DNA from: Pseudomonadota bacterium
GTDB lineage: Bacteria; Myxococcota_A; UBA796; GCA-2862545
Direction of reading: 5' to 3'
DNA length: 51,552 nucleotides
NCBI GenBank assembly: GCA_023954855.1
Contig: JAGSGY010000036.1
Span: 1-51,552, forward strand
Below, piece after piece: positions 9,301 through 44,001 of this stretch (position 1 is its first letter; each line of letters opens with the position of its first letter). Below the pieces are notes generated by a model. That model made no database searches. It had not been told where the DNA came from and worked only from the letters and a program-made list of their open reading frames with translations. A program made the translations under genes and the position numbers.

Positions 9301-10608
9301 ATGAGTGAGTCGACCCTTCCCTGGTGCATCATCGGTGCAGGACCTGCAGGTCTGCTGGCCGCGAGGGCCTTGAAGCGGGCCGGAATCGCGTACGAGCAGT
9401 TCGAGAAGAACCCCGATGTCGGTGGCATCTGGGACATCCGGAACGACGGGTCGCCCATGTACGAGTCGGCACACTTCATCTCGTCCAAGCAGGTCTCCCA
9501 CTTGCCTGGCTACCCCATGCCCGAGGACTACCCGGACTATCCCAATCATCGGCAGGTCTTCGCCTACCTTCAGGCGTTCGCGAAGCACTACGACCTGCTC
9601 GACGGCATTCGCTTCGACACCGCGGTGGAGCGTGTCGAGCGGGATGGCGAGCAGTGGGTCGTCGACATCGGCGAGGGCGAACCACGGCGCTACGCCGGCC
9701 TGTTCCTCTGCAGCGGCAACACCTGGGACCCGAACCTTCCGGACTACCCGGGCGAGCTCAGCGCCGAGAGCTTCCACTCCGTTCGCTACCGCGACGCCCA
9801 CGTCTTCGAGGGAAAGCGGGTCCTCGTCGTCGGTGGAGGCAACTCCGGCTGCGACATCGCCTGCGACGCCGCCACCTACGCCAACGGCGCGCTGATCAGC
9901 CTGCGCCGCGGCTATCACTTCATTCCCAAGTACATCTTCGGCACCCCGACCGACCTGTTCGCAGAAGGCGTGAAGCTGCCGTTCTGGCTCGAGAAGCGCA
10001 TCTTCAAGCTGCTCGTCAAGGGACTCGTCGGCGACCTCACCCGCTACGGCCTGCCCAAGCCCGACCACGCGTTGCTCGAGTCCCATCCCATCATGAACAC
10101 CCAGGTCCTGCACCACCTCGGCCACGGCGACCTCGCCTACCGACCCGACGTCGCCCGCTTCGACGGCAATACGGTGCACTTCACCGACGGAAGCCAAGAC
10201 CAAGTCGACCTCGTCGTCTTCGCCACCGGGTACAAGGTCACCTATCCGTACATGGACAAGACCCACTTCGAGTGGATCGGCAAGTACCCCGACCTCTACC
10301 TCTCCGCGCTGCACCGCACCTACGACAGCGTCTGCTGCCTCGGCCTACACCAGACCGACGGCGGAGCCTTCGACTTCTTCGCCATGCAGGCCGACATGAT
10401 GGCCAACTTCATTCTCGACAAGCGCCGCAACCCCGAGCGCGCCCAGCGCTTCTCGGACCTCAAGCGAACCGACCGCCCCGCCCTCAACGGCGGCCTTCGG
10501 TACGTCCGCTCCGATCGGCACGCCACCTACGTCAAGAAGTCCGTCTTCAAGAAGCACTGCGAACGCATCTTCAGCGACTTCGGCTGGCAGCGCTTCGCAT
10601 CCGTCTAA
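9301..10608 (+). CDS. Flavin-containing monooxygenase (FMO-like)
   Basis: A 435-residue flavoprotein monooxygenase. The FAD Rossmann motif GAGPAG is at 12-17, a second dinucleotide motif VLVVGGGNSGCDIA (NADPH) lies near 177-190, and between them PDYPGELSAESFHSVRYRD fits a diverged FMO identifying motif (FxGxxxHxxxY/F). FATGYK near 305 is the C-terminal ATGY signature. FMOs oxygenate soft nucleophiles (N, S) or carry out Baeyer-Villiger reactions using NADPH and O2; the substrate cannot be read from the sequence. AAGGAG five bases upstream supports the ATG at 9301. It is followed by the repeat region rather than by an ordinary terminator. Confidence 0.9.
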   Translation: MSESTLPWCIIGAGPAGLLAARALKRAGIAYEQFEKNPDVGGIWDIRNDGSPMYESAHFISSKQVSHLPGYPMPEDYPDYPNHRQVFAYLQAFAKHYDLLDGIRFDTAVERVERDGEQWVVDIGEGEPRRYAGLFLCSGNTWDPNLPDYPGELSAESFHSVRYRDAHVFEGKRVLVVGGGNSGCDIACDAATYANGALISLRRGYHFIPKYIFGTPTDLFAEGVKLPFWLEKRIFKLLVKGLVGDLTRYGLPKPDHALLESHPIMNTQVLHHLGHGDLAYRPDVARFDGNTVHFTDGSQDQVDLVVFATGYKVTYPYMDKTHFEWIGKYPDLYLSALHRTYDSVCCLGLHQTDGGAFDFFAMQADMMANFILDKRRNPERAQRFSDLKRTDRPALNGGLRYVRSDRHATYVKKSVFKKHCERIFSDFGWQRFASV

Positions 10609-10622
10609 ACCCGGAGCGCAGC

Positions 10623-10754
10623 GACGGTAGGCCGCAACCGGACCGAAGGGACGCGCGGCCGCCAGGCCGCAACCGGACCGAAGGGACGGTAGGCCGCCAG
10701 GCCGCCACCGGACCGAAGGGACGGTAGGCCGCCAGGCCGCCACCGGACCGAAGG
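10623..10754. repeat. 35-bp tandem direct repeats (3 full copies, 1 short)
   Basis: Copies begin GACGGTAGGCCGCCAGGCCG and end ACCGGACCGAAGG. Full 35-bp units lie at 10650-10684 (variant, GACGCGCGGCC start), 10685-10719 and 10720-10754; the last two are identical. A 27-bp copy lacking the internal repeated CAGGCCGC block precedes them at 10623-10649. There are no spacers, so it is a tandem repeat and not a CRISPR. It begins 14 bases after the FMO stop. All six frames are open across it only because the unit is GC-rich and lacks stop codons. Confidence 0.95.
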
Positions 10755-10774
10755 GGCGCCGCGAAGGCGTGCAA

Positions 10775-10895
10775 GGACGGTGGGCCAGCTGGCTGCTGGG
10801 CCACTGGACGCCGTCACAAGCGACGAGCGCACTCTTGTGCGCGACAGAGCGAAGGGACAAGTCCAGTGGCTCAGCAGCCGCTGGACCATCCGTCC
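10775..10895. repeat. Long imperfect inverted repeat (35-bp arms, 51-base loop)
   Basis: The left arm 10775-10809 starts GGACGGTGGGCCAGCTGGCT and ends GCCACTGGAC. The right arm 10861-10895 starts GTCCAGTGGC and ends CCATCCGTCC. Its reverse complement matches the left arm except for two substitutions and two one-base indels. The loop holds a second small hairpin, GCGCAC (10827-10832) with GTGCGC (10837-10842), and a CGAAGGGAC like that in the neighbouring tandem unit. The right arm ends at the first base of the dksA stop triplet, so the structure fills the space between two convergent genes. It could act as a bidirectional terminator or be a mobile palindromic element. Confidence 0.9.
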
Positions 10896-11293
10896 TAAAA
10901 GGCGCGGCGCTTGCGCTCGAGCTGCTCAGCTTCGGTCTTGCAGTCGATGCAGTGCGTCGCGACAGGGCGAGCCATCAAGCGGCGCTCGGCGATGTCTTCG
11001 CCACAGGCCACACAGATTCCGTACTCACCATCGTCAACGCGCTTCAGCGCCTCACGGATCTTGACCACCAGACGGCGCTCACGATCTTGCAAACGGAGGG
11101 TGAAGTCGCGGTTGGACTCCATCGACGCGATGTCGATCGTGTCCGTCAGAGCCTCGCGCTCCTCGGTGAGGTTGCCGATGGTCGCCCCGGCCCCTTCGAG
11201 GAGTGCGGTGAGACGTTCCTTCAGGAGAGTGCGGAAAAACTCCAGACGTTCCTGGTCCAAGTGACCTCCATTTACTTCGCTGTCGTTGCCCAT
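10895..11293 (-). CDS. dksA: DksA/TraR-family RNA polymerase-binding transcription factor
   Basis: A 132-residue protein with an N-terminal coiled coil and a C4 zinc finger. Cys94, Cys97, Cys115 and Cys118 (CVACGE and CIDCK) would bind zinc, and DTIDIA at 51-56 keeps the DxxDxA coiled-coil-tip motif through which DksA acts in the secondary channel of RNA polymerase. DksA works with ppGpp in the stringent response. Conservation of the tip acids argues for true DksA function and not a TraR-like remnant; the genome may carry other copies. The ATG lies 29 bases from the divergent outer-membrane gene, and its stop touches the long inverted repeat. Confidence 0.92.
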   Translation of the reverse strand: MGNDSEVNGGHLDQERLEFFRTLLKERLTALLEGAGATIGNLTEEREALTDTIDIASMESNRDFTLRLQDRERRLVVKIREALKRVDDGEYGICVACGEDIAERRLMARPVATHCIDCKTEAEQLERKRRAF

Positions 11294-11322
11294 CGCGAAA
11301 GCCGCGACTAGTAAGCCGGTTC

Positions 11323-12237
11323 ATGAGTCACTGCAAACTCCCTTTCCTGCTGATCGCGATCACGGTCGCCTCCCCCGCAATAGCGGGCGAAGCACACCTT
11401 GGCGCAAACACCGTCGCAACCGGAGGCGCCTCCGCGGCGCTGACCCGCGAGAATGCGGCCGTGACAGCCAGCCCGGGCACCCTTGCCCTCACAGAGCGCT
11501 ACGACGGGATGGGCTTCGGCTCTCTCGGGCCGGGGCTCGACTACCGAGCGGGGGCCTCGGCCGTCGACTCACGGACTGGGCCTGTGGCCTTTGGCCTCGC
11601 CTATCGGAGGTCTCACAACAACCTACCGGTCACCGATCAAGATCAACCCGGCTGGCTCGTCGATGGCGCCCAAGCGACCAACAAAGAGCAGTCCCACGAC
11701 GTCACCATTGCGCTGGCTGTTCCAATCAGTGACCGCATGTTCTCGGTCGGCGTCAACGGCACGCTCCTGTGGTGGAAGCGCGAGCGACGCGGCAAGGGCT
11801 TTTCGGGCAATCTCGATGTCGGCTTCGCGGCCGCCCCGTCGAAGTACTTCACGGCGAGCCTCACCGGTCGCAACCTGATCTACATCATCGAAGACGAGGA
11901 CATGCCCGTTGGCGGCGTCCTAGGCCTACGAGCGGGCGACCGTGAGATCTTCCATGGCGTGGCCGACATCGAGTACTCGGTGCCATATGGACTGAGCGTG
12001 CGCACCGGCGTCGACGGAAGCGCCGGCCCAACTCGCCTTCGAGGTGGCTACGCTTGGGACGCGGAGCTCTCGCAGCATCACGTGACGTGGGGGCTCGGCA
12101 TGGAGAACACCGCCGGCGCTTTCGAGTACGCGATGCGCATCCCCGTGACCAACAACAACCACGGCTTCGCGGGAATCCTGCACACGATCTCGTTCCGGGT
12201 CTACCCGCCACCGCTCGAGCCCCCAGCCCCGAGATAG
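11323..12237 (+). CDS. Exported, probable outer-membrane beta-barrel protein
   Basis: A 304-residue protein with a clear signal peptide (MSHCKLPFLLIAITVASPAIAG, cleavage after AIA). The mature N terminus GANTVATGGASAALTRENAA with downstream VTASPGTLALTERYDGM resembles the start of PorV/FadL/UPF0164-type barrels, where small residues precede NPA-like turns. The rest alternates polar and hydrophobic residues in strand-like runs, with an aromatic-containing end (SFRVYPPPLEPPAPR). Family assignment is by general appearance only. The TetR regulator starts four bases after its stop, so the two are likely one operon and TetR may control it. No Shine-Dalgarno is obvious before the ATG. Confidence 0.7.
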   Translation: MSHCKLPFLLIAITVASPAIAGEAHLGANTVATGGASAALTRENAAVTASPGTLALTERYDGMGFGSLGPGLDYRAGASAVDSRTGPVAFGLAYRRSHNNLPVTDQDQPGWLVDGAQATNKEQSHDVTIALAVPISDRMFSVGVNGTLLWWKRERRGKGFSGNLDVGFAAAPSKYFTASLTGRNLIYIIEDEDMPVGGVLGLRAGDREIFHGVADIEYSVPYGLSVRTGVDGSAGPTRLRGGYAWDAELSQHHVTWGLGMENTAGAFEYAMRIPVTNNNHGFAGILHTISFRVYPPPLEPPAPR

Positions 12238-12241
12238 TCGA

Positions 12242-12865
12242 ATGGGTCGTCGCGAAGAGAAGAAGCGACAGAAACGAGAGGCCATCGAATCGGCCGGTCT
12301 CGAACTGTTCCTAAGCCAGGGCTACGAGCGAGCCTCGATCGAGCAGATCGCTGCCAGCGCCAGCATCGCGCGCGGCACCTTCTACCTCTACTACCCGACC
12401 AAGCTCGAGCTCTTCGAAGCCCTGGTCGACGTCTGGTTCGAGCCCCTTCTCAAGCTGCTTGACGAGGCAGAAGCACGGCTTGCCATCAGCCACACGCGAG
12501 AGGAGTCTCTGGCGATCTACGGCGAGATGACCCTCGGCCTCGCGACCCTCGGCCTCAACCATGAGTCGGCCGTCGAGCTTGCATTCCGTGAGTCACGGGG
12601 CGGCGGAGAGGCCGGAGCGGCCGTTCGAACACGAGAGCTTCGCCTGCAGGCCGCCTCCCTTCGCCTCACGGAAGTTGGTGCGGAGCGCGGCCTGATCACG
12701 GCTCCGAATCCGAGGCTAGCAAGTTTGCTGATTCTCGGCGCCATCGAGCGCCTGTTCTTCGAGGTGCTCTCGGACGCTGAGGGCTTAGACGACCCACTCA
12801 CCCTCGCCTCGGGCGCGCTCGCCATGCTCGGCAACATGCTCGACCTACCGACCGGAATCGTCTAG
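12242..12865 (+). CDS. TetR/AcrR-family transcriptional regulator
   Basis: A 207-residue protein. The N-terminal DNA-binding domain is typical: basic start MGRREEKKRQKREAIESAGL, then LFLSQGYERASIEQIAASA and ARGTFYLYYPTKLELFEALV over residues about 20-65. The C-terminal ligand-binding part is helical and specific to this protein, so the inducer is unknown. It lies four bases downstream of the outer-membrane protein gene. Its TAG overlaps the TAG of the convergent GGDEF gene in a shared CTAG. Confidence 0.92.
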   Translation: MGRREEKKRQKREAIESAGLELFLSQGYERASIEQIAASASIARGTFYLYYPTKLELFEALVDVWFEPLLKLLDEAEARLAISHTREESLAIYGEMTLGLATLGLNHESAVELAFRESRGGGEAGAAVRTRELRLQAASLRLTEVGAERGLITAPNPRLASLLILGAIERLFFEVLSDAEGLDDPLTLASGALAMLGNMLDLPTGIV

Positions 12866-14124
12866 CGATCGCTCACCACGATCTGGTTGCGGCCCGCGAG
12901 CTTTCCGCGATGGACCCGACTCTCCGCGGTAAAGGTCAGAGCACGGCCGCTCGTGCATTCAGGCTCCACTTCAGCCACGCCCGCCGTGAACGTCACGTCA
13001 GGGAGCGCCGGATCGGCGTTGGCGAGGGCGGCCCGAAGGCGACGTCGCACGGCAGTCGCCACAGCATGACCGCGAGCCGTGCCTCCATGGTGCAAGAACA
13101 ACACGTACTGGTCATCTGCGTAGCGAACCATCAGGTCCTGACTCGACGCTTCATCGAGCAGGGTGAGGCCGAGTACCCTTGGAATGCGCCCGGCTATCTC
13201 GGGCCCATACAAGCGCGTGTAGGCGCGGAACTGATCCAGATCGAGCAGTACCAGCACGGCGTCACGCTCGGCCCGCAAGGCTTTGGTGACCTCCATGTCG
13301 AGCACGTCCAAGAAGAATGAAGCGCTGTACAGACCCGACTCGGCGTCGCGAATCTTCTTCACGGCGTCGTCGTCCACCGCATCGAGCCCCCAATCGGCCA
13401 GCACCCCTCGAATCGGTCCACGCCCCACCTGGGCATAGTGAGCGCCCGCGGCATGCAGCCACGCGCCGAACACCAGGCCGTACACCAGCGCGCACCAGCT
13501 CTTGCCGAGAAGGCCACTCACGAGGATTGGCAGCCAGAGGTCCGTGCCTCCGAAGGCCCCCGTCGCGAACAGAAACGTGTCGGTCGCAAGCACGAGAACA
13601 AGCGACAGCACCGCACGCAAGGTCAGCCAGTCCGGCACAAGCCGCCCCAAGACCTCCCACACCATCGAGACGATCACCACGTCCAGTGCGGTCACCAACG
13701 TCCCCACGAGCATCGTACGGGCGTTCACCGCGAAGATACTCATCGGCACGCCCAACAGGTTCACGGTCTCGCCAGCGGCGAGGTGCCAACCCAACAGCAG
13801 TGTCCACACGGTGAGGATCAGGTTCGCGACAATCAGGCCAAACACGAGGCGGCGGGTCTGTACGACCCCCACGCGCACGTACACGGCGAGCACCGCAAAC
13901 AGGTTGCCCGCAAACAGGGATGTGGAGCCGGGACTCACGCTGAAGTCGCCGCCAATCGGTACGTAGAACGAGATCGCCAGCAGGGTCTGGAGGAACTGCC
14001 ACGACCCGAGCACGACGAAGAGCGGCCCCAGGCCGAGAGGCTCTCGAAGCCGAACCAGCGCCAGCACGAAGGCGGCGCCCACCAGGCATTCCACGGTGAG
14101 AAAGCCGAATTGAATCCAGTCCAT
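12862..14124 (-). CDS. Membrane protein with degenerate GGDEF domain
   Basis: A 420-residue protein. The start MDWIQFGF at 14124 is preferred over earlier in-frame codons because these lie inside the preceding gene. Residues 1 to about 250 hold seven or eight hydrophobic helices. From about residue 270 a GGDEF-like domain follows: LVLLDLDQFRAYTRLYGPEI matches the DxDxFKxxND region, but the signature loop is ADDQY (in VRYADDQYVLFLH) instead of GGDEF. Catalytic diguanylate cyclase activity is therefore doubtful; it may bind nucleotide, or act as a sensor. It ends a minus-strand run that also includes FHA proteins, and starts 28 bases after the HEAT-like lipoprotein. Confidence 0.75.
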   Translation of the reverse strand: MDWIQFGFLTVECLVGAAFVLALVRLREPLGLGPLFVVLGSWQFLQTLLAISFYVPIGGDFSVSPGSTSLFAGNLFAVLAVYVRVGVVQTRRLVFGLIVANLILTVWTLLLGWHLAAGETVNLLGVPMSIFAVNARTMLVGTLVTALDVVIVSMVWEVLGRLVPDWLTLRAVLSLVLVLATDTFLFATGAFGGTDLWLPILVSGLLGKSWCALVYGLVFGAWLHAAGAHYAQVGRGPIRGVLADWGLDAVDDDAVKKIRDAESGLYSASFFLDVLDMEVTKALRAERDAVLVLLDLDQFRAYTRLYGPEIAGRIPRVLGLTLLDEASSQDLMVRYADDQYVLFLHHGGTARGHAVATAVRRRLRAALANADPALPDVTFTAGVAEVEPECTSGRALTFTAESRVHRGKLAGRNQIVVSDR

Positions 14125-14152
14125 GTGGCAGCGTACCAGCCGAAGCACACCG

Positions 14153-15280
14153 CTACTGCGACAACGCCAACAATGCGCCCAGAGCCTCGACCTGGACGCC
14201 ACGATCGTCATCCCGGGCAAGGACCTGTAAATAGGGCAGCGCCTGCTCAAATGGCGCTTTCTGCACGGCACGAGCGGCCTCGAGGCGCACCTCCGCACTC
14301 TCGTCGGCCAAACCCACCAGTAGAATGCGCTCGAGCAACACGCGGTTCCTCGGATCGTCCGCCACCGCGACGGCGCAGCGCATCGCCAGGGCGCGCACTT
14401 CCTCCACCTCCGAACTCACGACGGGAATGAGCTTTCGAAGGGCCACGCTCCCCTGCCTCACACGCACGCAGGTCGCGCTCTGAGCCACCATCTCGGTCCC
14501 GACGCTCACGCGCTTGAGCGCACCATCCGCCGCGGTCGTGTCTACGGCCATCAGGGCGTCAATCACCGCGAGTCGCTCCTCGTCGTCGCTCGCGGCGAGC
14601 CCAGCACGAACCGCCTGGAGGCCTCCGAAGTCTCCCAAAACGAGCCGGGATGCCGCCCAGGCCGGGGAAATCTCCGGTTCGATTCGTGCGCTACCCTCTG
14701 CCATCGCGGCCACGAGGACGTCGCCGTGACCCACCCGAGCGACATCGGCGATAAACCGAAGCTCGAGGGGAATCGTGCCGGCGCGAAGCTCGCCTGCGAG
14801 CACCTCTTCCGCCCCTTCGACGCCCACCGCGACGCCAGCCAGTGCGATCGGAGCGCGAGACCACGACGGGCCCGAACCCAGTGCCTCTCCAAGGGCCTGC
14901 TGGGTGGCCTCCGAGGCCTGAACGCCGAGCACCACCGCCCCTGCCGCTCGCGCAAAGGGGTCGTGTTCACCCGCGACCCATGCATCGAGTACGGAGGCCC
15001 CATCGCTCCGACTGGCCATGGCGTCGATCACGGCCATCTGGACCCAGGGCTCGGGATCGTAGAGTCCTCGCCCTGCCCAGTCGAGACCGTCGGGTTGACG
15101 TACGCGAAGGGCCAGCGCCCGCGCGCGGAGGTAGGGCTCGAGACTCCCGCCGAGCGCCTCCAACTGAACCAGCGCATCTGCCGGCGCCACCGCGGCCACG
15201 GCTGCCGGCGTCTCGGGCGACACCAGGGCTTTTGAACACCCTGCAAGCAAGGCGACCCACACAAGAAAGCGACGAGCTAT
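14153..15280 (-). CDS. HEAT-like repeat lipoprotein
   Basis: About 375 residues. The reading has a clean lipoprotein signal (ARRFLVWVALLAGC) and mature Cys, then alanine/leucine-rich helical repeats of HEAT/armadillo type: DPEPWVQMAVIDAMA, DPFARAAGAVVLGVQ, DDEERLAVIDALMA and LADESAEVRLEAARAVQ. Such proteins are usually scaffolds or binding partners. The start is difficult: no ATG, GTG or TTG gives a normal signal peptide. The only in-frame start giving a basic n-region is ATA at 15280, which overlaps the upstream FHA stop by four bases (ATAG). GTG at 15262 would leave a signal of only about eight residues. Located between the FHA/TPR gene and the GGDEF gene on the same strand. Confidence 0.7.
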   Translation of the reverse strand: MARRFLVWVALLAGCSKALVSPETPAAVAAVAPADALVQLEALGGSLEPYLRARALALRVRQPDGLDWAGRGLYDPEPWVQMAVIDAMASRSDGASVLDAWVAGEHDPFARAAGAVVLGVQASEATQQALGEALGSGPSWSRAPIALAGVAVGVEGAEEVLAGELRAGTIPLELRFIADVARVGHGDVLVAAMAEGSARIEPEISPAWAASRLVLGDFGGLQAVRAGLAASDDEERLAVIDALMAVDTTAADGALKRVSVGTEMVAQSATCVRVRQGSVALRKLIPVVSSEVEEVRALAMRCAVAVADDPRNRVLLERILLVGLADESAEVRLEAARAVQKAPFEQALPYLQVLARDDDRGVQVEALGALLALSQ

Positions 15281-26929: not shown

Positions 26930-28632
26930 CAGTACTTGGGCTCACAAGTGAAGCGGATCCCGTTGCACTGAATGCGCACCACTGCCCCCGCAATCACCTC
27001 GGCCTTACCGACCGCGCTGAGCGGACCGTCACCTTCATCGCTGAAGTCCGCCCAGATATCGTAGACCCCTGCAGGCACCTCTCCGAGAGCTCTGTCCCCG
27101 CCCGCGGCGTCGCGAAGCACGATGCGAACGCCCGCGGGTCCAAGGACGGAACCAAGGCGGACGGGCACGGGCTCTGGGGCAGGCTCGACCACCACCGGCT
27201 CCAGCTCGACGGGCTCCGGGACTGGCTCGGGCACCACGACGGGCCGCGGGCGCGGTCGAGGCGCGACCGCCACGGGTTCCGGTGCGACAACGGCCGGCTC
27301 CGCAATGGGCTCGGGGATGACCTCGGCGACCTCAACAGGCTCCGCCGCGGGCTCCGCCGCAGGCTCCGCCGCGGGCTCGACTGGGGGCACCGCGGGCTCC
27401 TCGATGACGGTGGACGCCACGCCGGTCTCATTGGGAATGACCCACCACAGGCCGCCCAAGAGCAGCGGAATCACGAGTAGAACTGGCCACGGGAAACGTC
27501 GCTCCGCTGGACCCTCTTCGACGGACACCGCCTCCGCGACATCGACGGTGGAACCCCAAGTCCCGGACAGGCCCAGATCAATGGTCCGGTCCACGGAGTT
27601 CGTCGGCTGCGCATCCGAAAAGTCAGAGCTCCGACCCGAGAGCATCGACAGCGTCTGCTCGGTCAGCGTCTGACCGCTAAGGGGGCCGCCCGACCGTGCT
27701 GCACCCCAGTCAAAGGCACGAGACCAAGCCTTGAGCCGAAGTCCGGCAGCCCGATCGGCGAGCTCGTCGCACCGGCTGGCGACCTCCTCGGCGCCGGGCC
27801 GCTTCGTCGGGTCGAACGCGAGCATCTCGGCAATCAGCGGCACCGCGACCTGTGCGTCAGGAGGCAAGCTGGCGAGCGCAGCCTGGATGTGGGCGTCATG
27901 CAGCTCTTGCGAGGCCGCCGTTCGCGCCATGTCGACCGGCGACGCATCCGGGAACAAGCGCTCCCCACAGAGCGCCTCGTAGGTCGTGCATCCCAGCGCG
28001 TAGATGTCGGATGCCGGATGGGCCGCACTCCTCGCGAAGCGCTCTGGGGCCATGTACGGCAGGCTTCCCATCATCGCCGTCGCGTTCGTCTGCGCTTCAC
28101 GCCCCGCGACAGCAGCCCAGGCAATGCCAAAGTCGAGGAGCTTCACCTCGCCGTGCCGGCCCACCCGAATGTTCGAGGGCTTCACGTCGCGATGCACGAG
28201 CCGCATCGGTGCAATGCCGTCCGCGGGCACGGTAGTGAAAGCCACATGCAGTGCCTCGGCCACCACCGCCACCACCTCGAGCACAGCGCGCGGCGGAAGC
28301 GGACGACCGCTCGGATCGGTCAGGTCGTTGAGGTCCGCGCCGTCGACGAACTCGGTGACCAGCGCGACATTGCCATCGAGTCCCGCAAGGTCGAGGGCCC
28401 GCAGAATGGCCGGGTGGTTGAGCGCCGCGAGCAGCTTGCCCTCATCGCGCAGCCGCCGAAGCGCATCGGGATTGGCATCGCGGAGAAGCTTGACCGCGAC
28501 ATCACTCTTCAGTCCCCCCGGCGAGACCATCGTCGCCAAGTAGACCTCTCCGAACCCGCCTCGCCCGAGGCAATCGCGCATATGGAAGCGCCGCTGCCGG
28601 TCAGCTCCGGGAGTGATGCGGGAGTTCTTCAT
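26929..28632 (-). CDS. Membrane Ser/Thr protein kinase with Pro/Glu-rich stalk
   Basis: A 567-residue Hanks-type kinase. Catalytic elements: G-loop GRGGFG at 23-28, Lys48, HRDVKPSN from 147, DFG at 167-169, and MAPERFA with APE at about 195-197. After a linker, one transmembrane helix lies near 382-400 (PVLLVIPLLLGGLWWVI), then an extracytoplasmic stalk of AEP/PEP repeats at about 410-490, and a small C-terminal beta-domain (VRIVLRDAAGGDRALGEVPA) ending with VVRIQCNGIRFTCEPKY, which resembles a PEGA-like module. Likely a sensor of the envelope that phosphorylates cytoplasmic targets, such as FHA proteins. Divergent from tamB; coupled to the exported protein. Confidence 0.92.
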   Translation of the reverse strand: MKNSRITPGADRQRRFHMRDCLGRGGFGEVYLATMVSPGGLKSDVAVKLLRDANPDALRRLRDEGKLLAALNHPAILRALDLAGLDGNVALVTEFVDGADLNDLTDPSGRPLPPRAVLEVVAVVAEALHVAFTTVPADGIAPMRLVHRDVKPSNIRVGRHGEVKLLDFGIAWAAVAGREAQTNATAMMGSLPYMAPERFARSAAHPASDIYALGCTTYEALCGERLFPDASPVDMARTAASQELHDAHIQAALASLPPDAQVAVPLIAEMLAFDPTKRPGAEEVASRCDELADRAAGLRLKAWSRAFDWGAARSGGPLSGQTLTEQTLSMLSGRSSDFSDAQPTNSVDRTIDLGLSGTWGSTVDVAEAVSVEEGPAERRFPWPVLLVIPLLLGGLWWVIPNETGVASTVIEEPAVPPVEPAAEPAAEPAAEPVEVAEVIPEPIAEPAVVAPEPVAVAPRPRPRPVVVPEPVPEPVELEPVVVEPAPEPVPVRLGSVLGPAGVRIVLRDAAGGDRALGEVPAGVYDIWADFSDEGDGPLSAVGKAEVIAGAVVRIQCNGIRFTCEPKY

Positions 28633-42846: not shown

Positions 42847-44001
42847 ATGGCCAAATCCGCCAGCTTCACCCTCCCCGCCGGCGTCGACCTCTCGGTCGAG
42901 GACAACAAGCTCAATGTCCGCTACGACGGCGATGTCTCGCTTGAACAGAGCATGGGCCTGGAGCTCGGTTCTGTCACCGCAGGTGGAGATCTCCACGTTG
43001 CGCTCGAGAAGATCACGGGCGCACTGTCCGCAGGCGGCAAGCTGTCGCTCGAAGGCGCTGTCGACGCGAGCTCCATCGAAGCTCCTACGCTGACGCTTCC
43101 GGACGGTGCTTCGGTCCAGACGCTGAACGTCGCGGGCGACCTCACCGCCTCCGATGTCACCGTGACCGACGCCACCATCGGTGGCAACGTCAAAGCGGGC
43201 ACCATCAACGCCACGGGCACCGTAACGATTAGCGGCACCGTCGAGGTGACGAAGATCACCGGACGCGTGGTCGAGATTTCGGGCGCGACGCTCAAGGCCA
43301 AGGCCATTTCCGCCACCGAGCGGATCACCATCGGTCCGGGCAAGCTCCAGATCGACGTCGTTGTCGCCCCGGAGGTCACGTTCGACGCTGGCGCCTCCGG
43401 TCGCATCACGGTCATCGAGTCCCGCAACGACCGCGGAGCCTCGAAGATCAAGGGCGGGCTGTCGGCCTCCGACTACGAAGAGATCATGGGCGGAGCCGAC
43501 GAGTTCCTCGCCGCGCGCGGCGTAGCCCCGCTGGGTGCCGAAGACGCCGATGCCACGCAGATCCCTGACGAGGTGGAAGAGCCTCAAGCCGACGAGCCCG
43601 AGGCGGAAGAGCCCGAGGCGGAAGAGCCTGCGGCTGAGGAGCCTGTCGTCGACGAGGCACCCGTGGTCGACGAGGACTTCGGTGAGGAAGAGGACGAAGA
43701 CCCGCTCTCCGTCTCCATCGACGATCTCGAGCCGATCGGCGCGAGCGTCGACGAAGAGCTGCTCGGCAAGCTCGAAGCGGCGATGACCAAGATTCGCTCG
43801 CTCTACAAGGCTGGCGACGAGCCGCCCGCCGTGACCCAGCTCGGCGCCTACATCGACAGCCGCGAGCTGGACGATCTGCGCGAGAACATCACCGGGATCT
43901 GGAACGGTCTGCTGACCTTCCACCAGAAGAAGGGCATTCGCCCCCACCACCAGGTGACCCACGCGTTCAACGTGATTCACGGCCTGGTCCAAGAGGCCTA
44001 G
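42847..44001 (+). CDS. Bactofilin-like beta-helix protein with acidic linker and helical C-terminal domain
   Basis: A 384-residue protein starting at 42847. Residues about 20-195 are a regular alternation of short beta strands with glycines (GSVTAGGDLHVALEKITGAL, ATIGGNVKAGTINATGTVTI), the pattern of a right-handed beta-helix such as bactofilins. Residues about 235-290 form an acidic linker rich in E, P, D and A (EPEAEEPEAEEPAAEEP). Residues about 300-384 are helical (LDDLRENITGIWNGLLTFHQ, THAFNVIHGLVQEA). Bactofilins polymerise on membranes, but typical ones are shorter and lack this tail. The function is inferred from fold only. The next gene, a vWA-like lipoprotein, starts 25 bases later. 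Confidence 0.65.
   Translation: MAKSASFTLPAGVDLSVEDNKLNVRYDGDVSLEQSMGLELGSVTAGGDLHVALEKITGALSAGGKLSLEGAVDASSIEAPTLTLPDGASVQTLNVAGDLTASDVTVTDATIGGNVKAGTINATGTVTISGTVEVTKITGRVVEISGATLKAKAISATERITIGPGKLQIDVVVAPEVTFDAGASGRITVIESRNDRGASKIKGGLSASDYEEIMGGADEFLAARGVAPLGAEDADATQIPDEVEEPQADEPEAEEPEAEEPAAEEPVVDEAPVVDEDFGEEEDEDPLSVSIDDLEPIGASVDEELLGKLEAAMTKIRSLYKAGDEPPAVTQLGAYIDSRELDDLRENITGIWNGLLTFHQKKGIRPHHQVTHAFNVIHGLVQEA

Follow-up and report, generated by a model that had tools for sequence, protein, structure and literature searches.

What is the structured DNA that separates two convergent genes, an FMO-like monooxygenase gene (9301..10608, + strand; PF00743, E 2.5e-50) and dksA (10895..11293, - strand; DksA_N and zf-dskA_traR domains, PF21157 and PF01258), in the 51,552-nucleotide stretch analysed here (the window)? 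A preliminary description had noted three full 35-bp units and a short one, followed by a 121-base inverted repeat with nearly matching arms and a nested hairpin in its loop, and all of these parts were located. The tandem array (10629..10759, + strand) holds 3.7 copies of the 35-bp unit (repeat family D1) and is the strongest tandem repeat of the window, with 93% matches and a TRF score of 213; weaker repeats with 15-bp and 12-bp periods lie at 43569-43643 and 27338-27378. The hairpin itself measures ~120 nt (121 nt, 10775..10895, + strand), with arms of 36 nt each at 10774-10809 and 10861-10896 and 51 nt between them, and the pairing of the arms, which is close to that described, includes one G.A mismatch as well as single-base bulges and a few G.U pairs. 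The nested hairpin is GCGCAC-TCTT-GTGCGC (10827..10842, + strand), a tip found identically in relatives. As had been claimed, the arm ends on the dksA stop triplet: C10895 belongs both to the hairpin foot and, as the last base of TAG on the - strand, to the stop codon at 10895-10897. The + strand of the region has a folding energy of -175.3 kcal/mol, compared with -132.2 +/- 5.8 in shuffled sequences (z -7.4), and the - strand also folds better than its shuffles (z -4.6). The statement that the other convergent junctions of the window have no intergenic space holds for the single junction looked at, where the TetR and GGDEF genes overlap (12865/12862).

By sequence the region stands by itself, and whole-region BLAST in its own 6.1-Mb genome (G000) matched only the region itself. 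A relative (G006) gave short BLAST matches located within the nested tip, and the tip pattern is present at 37 places in that genome. When aligned, the G006 copies form a hairpin of ~120 nt with a loop spacing equal to that of the window hairpin, and 18 of the 38 pairs in this alignment (A2) have changed on both sides, compared with 6.4 in shuffles. A covariance model in whose building the window sequence was included (R1) finds four copies in G000, counting that of the window, and copies in 7 of the 20 other members of the bacterial family; it finds none in 37 genomes of the same order outside that family and none in G001, which is of the same genus. The preliminary description had proposed to look for further copies, and to take uniqueness in the genome, if joined by absence from relatives and a lack of RNA 3' ends, as a sign of local sequence decay. 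The sequence is indeed unique by BLAST, and no other 35-bp unit was found, but the hairpin recurs once it is searched by structure, so that a uniqueness test would mislead.

When about 85,000 species genomes were scanned for a 23-base pattern of the tip, 104 stretches emerged, and the 80 listed come mostly from Collinsella, Slackia, Gordonibacter and other Coriobacteriia, along with Sulfurimonas and other Campylobacterales, Lentisphaerae and delta-group genomes. A second covariance model (R2) was built from 25 Coriobacteriia copies only, with no delta-group sequences, and in its alignment (A4) 30 of 39 pairs show double-sided changes. Applied to the 51.5-kb window, R2 has a single match at E <= 5, at 10791-10885 (E 1.5e-7), and it also recovers most of the other delta-group, Sulfurimonas-type and Lentisphaerae copies. 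Those other distant copies had been chosen by the tip pattern whereas the window copy had not, and its match to R2 is therefore independent evidence. Realignment of 53 matches from three genomes (A5), which include a few weak reverse-strand matches to the same palindromes, kept the structure, with double-sided change in 36 of 39 pairs, and no shuffle reached the covariation observed in A2, A4 or A5. The design common to most of the cross-phylum stretches that were folded consists of a conserved 6-bp tip, short helices, small internal loops rich in tandem G-A, and long, variable outer arms that covary; the Coriobacteriia copies also conserve tandem U-G/G-U pairs. Since it is mainly the shape that is conserved, the family escapes sequence search. 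Its members are structure-conserved hairpins of ~100-120 bases whose sequence changes; they occur in several phyla, at genes that are unrelated to one another, and lie behind the stop codon. The window hairpin is placed among them by its fold and by A2, R1 and R2.

The copy number of the family is high and patchy. With R2, as many as 44 copies were found in one Coriobacteriia genome and 31 in C. aerofaciens (G058), and one genome has at least 62 copies of the family, whereas 44 of the 59 Coriobacteriia genomes have none in the R2 search; some genomes rich in copies have near relatives with none. In Coriobacteriia, two hairpins that differ in their arms often follow one gene as a direct tandem pair, ~105-140 bp apart (L302, L303, L305, L308, L295, L298). 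Parts of the hairpin are also tandemly repeated beside it in G002 (L163 4968-5270, L154 6726-6834) and in the flank of one G000 copy (L121). The viral contigs and phages searched contained no hairpin copies, and the plasmids searched contained one Collinsella record with nine hairpin places (NZ_OY725717.1). This record (L413), titled 'plasmid 6' and 899,693 bases long, carries common genes, pstA/pstC among them, and may be part of a chromosome. Another record, CAMASI010000126.1 (L151 / L074), is titled as a Klebsiella pneumoniae MAG and is apparently G005 of the window's own family, with which it shares a contig of 8668 bases; it seems to be mistitled.

Comparison of equivalent sites shows some that are occupied and others that are free of the element. 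At the ileS-lspA junction of Collinsella six genomes are without it and nine others carry three distinct variants, and the extra stretch starts directly behind the ileS stop codon. Copies from different Collinsella loci reach 97-99% identity across about 113 bp, which indicates recent spread. In the window's own genome a copy behind nrdJ is absent from G001, and in G013, a more distant genome, nrdJ is directly followed by a copy of its own (a weak match to R1, E 0.05; E 1.7e-4 with R2). Element-free sites could be losses, and the nrdJ hairpins of G000 and G013 could reflect ancient inheritance followed by losses instead of repeated insertion. The dksA region of G001 (L042) has no hairpin and there dksA is convergent with a GGDEF gene. 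Against L042, the corresponding part of the window (10895-14298) has the GGDEF gene at 12862-14298, beyond the TetR gene, and dksA faces the FMO-like gene. As dksA faces different genes in the two genomes, the site of hairpin and array is a rearrangement breakpoint.

In G006 the hairpin makes up the right-hand half of an element of 219 bp whose ends are inverted (GGCAC.../...GTGCC). The 8-bp flanks match at 7 or 8 positions in 26 of the 35 copies examined, where 0.7 would be expected, and there are 134 matches to the left end of this element in the genome; among the 30 of these loci that were read (L383-L412) no autonomous or coding partner was found. Copies in genomes other than G006 showed no clear target duplication. 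The check for a flanking duplication that had been proposed thus gave a divided answer, with 8-bp duplications in the G006 form and none evident at the window copy, which has inverted arms between the flanks GCGTGCAA and TAAAAGGC.

The copies also share a position and an orientation. When the tip is read in the + direction of the window, the neighbour on the 3' side is usually an opposite-strand gene whose stop codon is turned toward the hairpin, as judged with flanking genes called by a simple coding score. In the window the 3' side of the hairpin faces the opposite-strand dksA stop at 0 nt, and in G000 and G008 together the distance is 0 nt at dksA, nrdJ, a rubrerythrin-like gene and two others. 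The spacing is 1 nt at a groEL in G020, -1 to 66 nt in G002, and -8 to 5 nt in the remaining cases, two of which have doubtful reading frames (L121, L128). Gene names other than dksA and FMO were read from C-terminal peptides. On the + strand, isolated mismatches in the arms are G.T rather than A.C (74 versus 18), and all arm mismatches together are G.A rather than T.C (307 versus 20). These excesses suggest that it is the antisense strand of the gene that folds, either as RNA or as single-stranded DNA, a reading drawn from base-pair statistics that is firmer for the delta group because in the 53-row Coriobacteriia set (A5) the G.T excess is due to two conserved wobble pairs.

Our preferred reading, to which we give a probability of roughly 0.6, takes the window hairpin as one copy of a dispersing element that is non-autonomous, is or once was mobile, and is associated with the 3' ends of genes. 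An enzyme acting in trans would recognise one folded strand and insert copies behind stop codons, where they would do little harm and would join the 3' untranslated region of the upstream gene. The obvious type of enzyme would be a reader of folded single strands, as a candidate type only, and no mobilising gene was found among those examined, namely Y1 genes and the G006 loci that were read. The preliminary description had offered a terminator, a REP/REPIN-like or MITE-like element, or a structured RNA; of this range, a dispersed, structured and probably mobile element is supported by the R1 copies, the cross-phylum tip scan, the R2 copy counts, the Collinsella variants and the G006 duplications.

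It is rather unlikely, in our judgement, that the hairpin is instead an RNA element serving the host in the mRNA of the upstream gene, by protecting the 3' end, affecting ribosome release or blocking read-through, with spread being secondary. Placement at 0 nt from the stop codon of several unrelated genes, the preferred orientation and the compensatory changes that keep the structure are all consistent with such a role, but the patchy occurrence, with the element missing from most Coriobacteriia genomes and from the same-genus G001, and the fact that the better-folding strand is antisense to the gene and not the mRNA strand speak against it. The antisense strand and the conserved tandem U-G/G-U pairs of Coriobacteriia would suit a family of small RNA genes transcribed from the + strand, antisense to the 3' end of the neighbouring gene. 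We consider this improbable, since the left gene points away in many copies, so that no ordinary transcript yields the + strand, and the G.T excess in A5 comes down to two pairs, no Rfam family matched (there were sub-threshold chance matches only and none above a gathering threshold), and a scan with a sigma-70 pattern was negative. A bidirectional intrinsic terminator, which the preliminary description had offered, agrees with a strong hairpin between the convergent FMO and dksA genes, but it is very improbable: the stem is not followed by a U-tract, no terminator-like site was found at the locus, a U-tract follows the hairpin in 2 of 52 copies in gene sense and 1 of 52 in antisense (at most 2/52 on either side), and many copies lie between co-directional genes. 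Local decay or a chance palindrome without relatives would fit a sequence that is unique in its own genome, yet it is hardly credible given the model matches there and in other phyla, the covariation of the arms and, already contradicting it, the independent match of R2 to the window hairpin.

Several known systems resemble the hairpins in part. Integron attC sites are long, imperfect single-strand hairpins behind stop codons, with variable arms, a strand orientation, RYYYAAC and GTTRRRY boxes and cassette arrays. The hairpins share the long imperfect fold, the place behind a stop codon, the variable arms and the strand orientation but are dispersed behind chromosomal genes and not in cassette arrays, and they lack the boxes, the window hairpin ending in GGACGG / CCGTCC; an attC identity was rejected. 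Type III toxin-antitoxin RNAs have tandem repeats of ~35 nt followed by a hairpin, with a toxin gene downstream on the same strand. The arrangement of array and hairpin in the window is similar, but there is no same-strand toxin gene and the next gene is the convergent dksA, so this identity was rejected as well. With MITEs and the ERIC/RU elements (about 100-170 bp) the hairpins share size, an imperfect palindrome, intergenic position and multiple copies, and the G006 form has the inverted ends and 8-bp duplications of a MITE, whereas at the window copy no TIR or TSD was seen; ERIC/RU elements are intergenic repeats described from enterobacteria (PMC2759123), and the hairpin family spans phyla by structure.

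The preliminary description also likened the feature to REP/REPIN sequences. Those with GTAG and CGTC tags are dispersed palindromes, mostly downstream of genes and suspected of single-strand hairpin mobility (PMC3733652, PMC3116915), as the hairpin family also is dispersed, palindromic and mostly downstream of genes. But REPs are 20-40 bp long with stems of 5-13 bp and a terminal GTAG/CGTC tag (PMC3733652), while the hairpins measure ~100-120 nt, their long arms covary, and they have tandem G-A loops as well as a conserved tip. The + strand hairpin of the window ends in CGTCC, with these bases paired where a REP tag would be unpaired. With a length of 121 nt, arms of 36 nt and no hairpin beside the Y1 (RAYT) transposase genes examined, the published definition does not apply and the REP/REPIN reading was abandoned. 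REPs of the CGTC type likewise have no linked transposase (PMC3733652). A RAYT/REP mobiliser was likewise rejected: Y1 genes occur without adjoining hairpins, none was found in G000, and several hairpin-positive genomes are without one. Within Coriobacteriia Y1 genes are present in 11 of 15 hairpin-positive genomes and 4 of 27 negative ones (5/27 counting G066; Fisher p 4e-4 for the 4/27 tally), an association uncontrolled for ancestry and mixing Y1 types that we regard as a lead only. No description of the hairpin family was found in the literature searched, to which the tables of PMC8040213, on structured RNAs predicted in human microbiomes including Collinsella, did not belong.

The tandem array appears to be a local addition beside the window hairpin. 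Its units hold a 17-nt mini-hairpin built as stem-GA-stem-GNA-stem-GA-stem, and three strict matches to this grammar are present in the window, all on the + strand and all inside the feature, where 0.04 would be expected: CCG-GA-GC-GCA-GC-GA-CGG preceding the array (10611..10627) and CCG-GA-CC-GAA-GG-GA-CGG in one unit (10673..10689) and in the following one (10708..10724), with near-matches read from the sequence at 10638-10654 and 10743-10759. The grammar accounts for the word that the preliminary description saw as common to unit and loop: the units have GACCGAAGGGAC, the hairpin loop GAGCGAAGGGAC. The common origin proposed for the two is only suggested, by the GA/GNA design on the same strand in both; no further copy of the 35-bp unit was found, and a genome-wide word search for GAGCGCAGCGAC-type motifs gave 69 places against 49 for a reversed-pattern control, with no clear family. 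The mini-hairpin grammar was not found at the other hairpin loci tested and was rejected as a feature of the family.

It is possible, though doubtful, that the hairpins make up a new class of mobile nucleic-acid element that extends across phyla, in which shape is what marks an oriented hairpin for recognition and insertion is specific to sites behind stop codons, perhaps tied to transcription or RNA. The alignments A2, A4 and A5 are directly usable for annotation. If the mobile reading is true, many genes of uncultured delta-group bacteria, and of such common gut bacteria as Collinsella and Eggerthellaceae, would be followed by an unlabelled mobile element, which would serve as a test case for the way in which the ends of genes are found in a preferred orientation.
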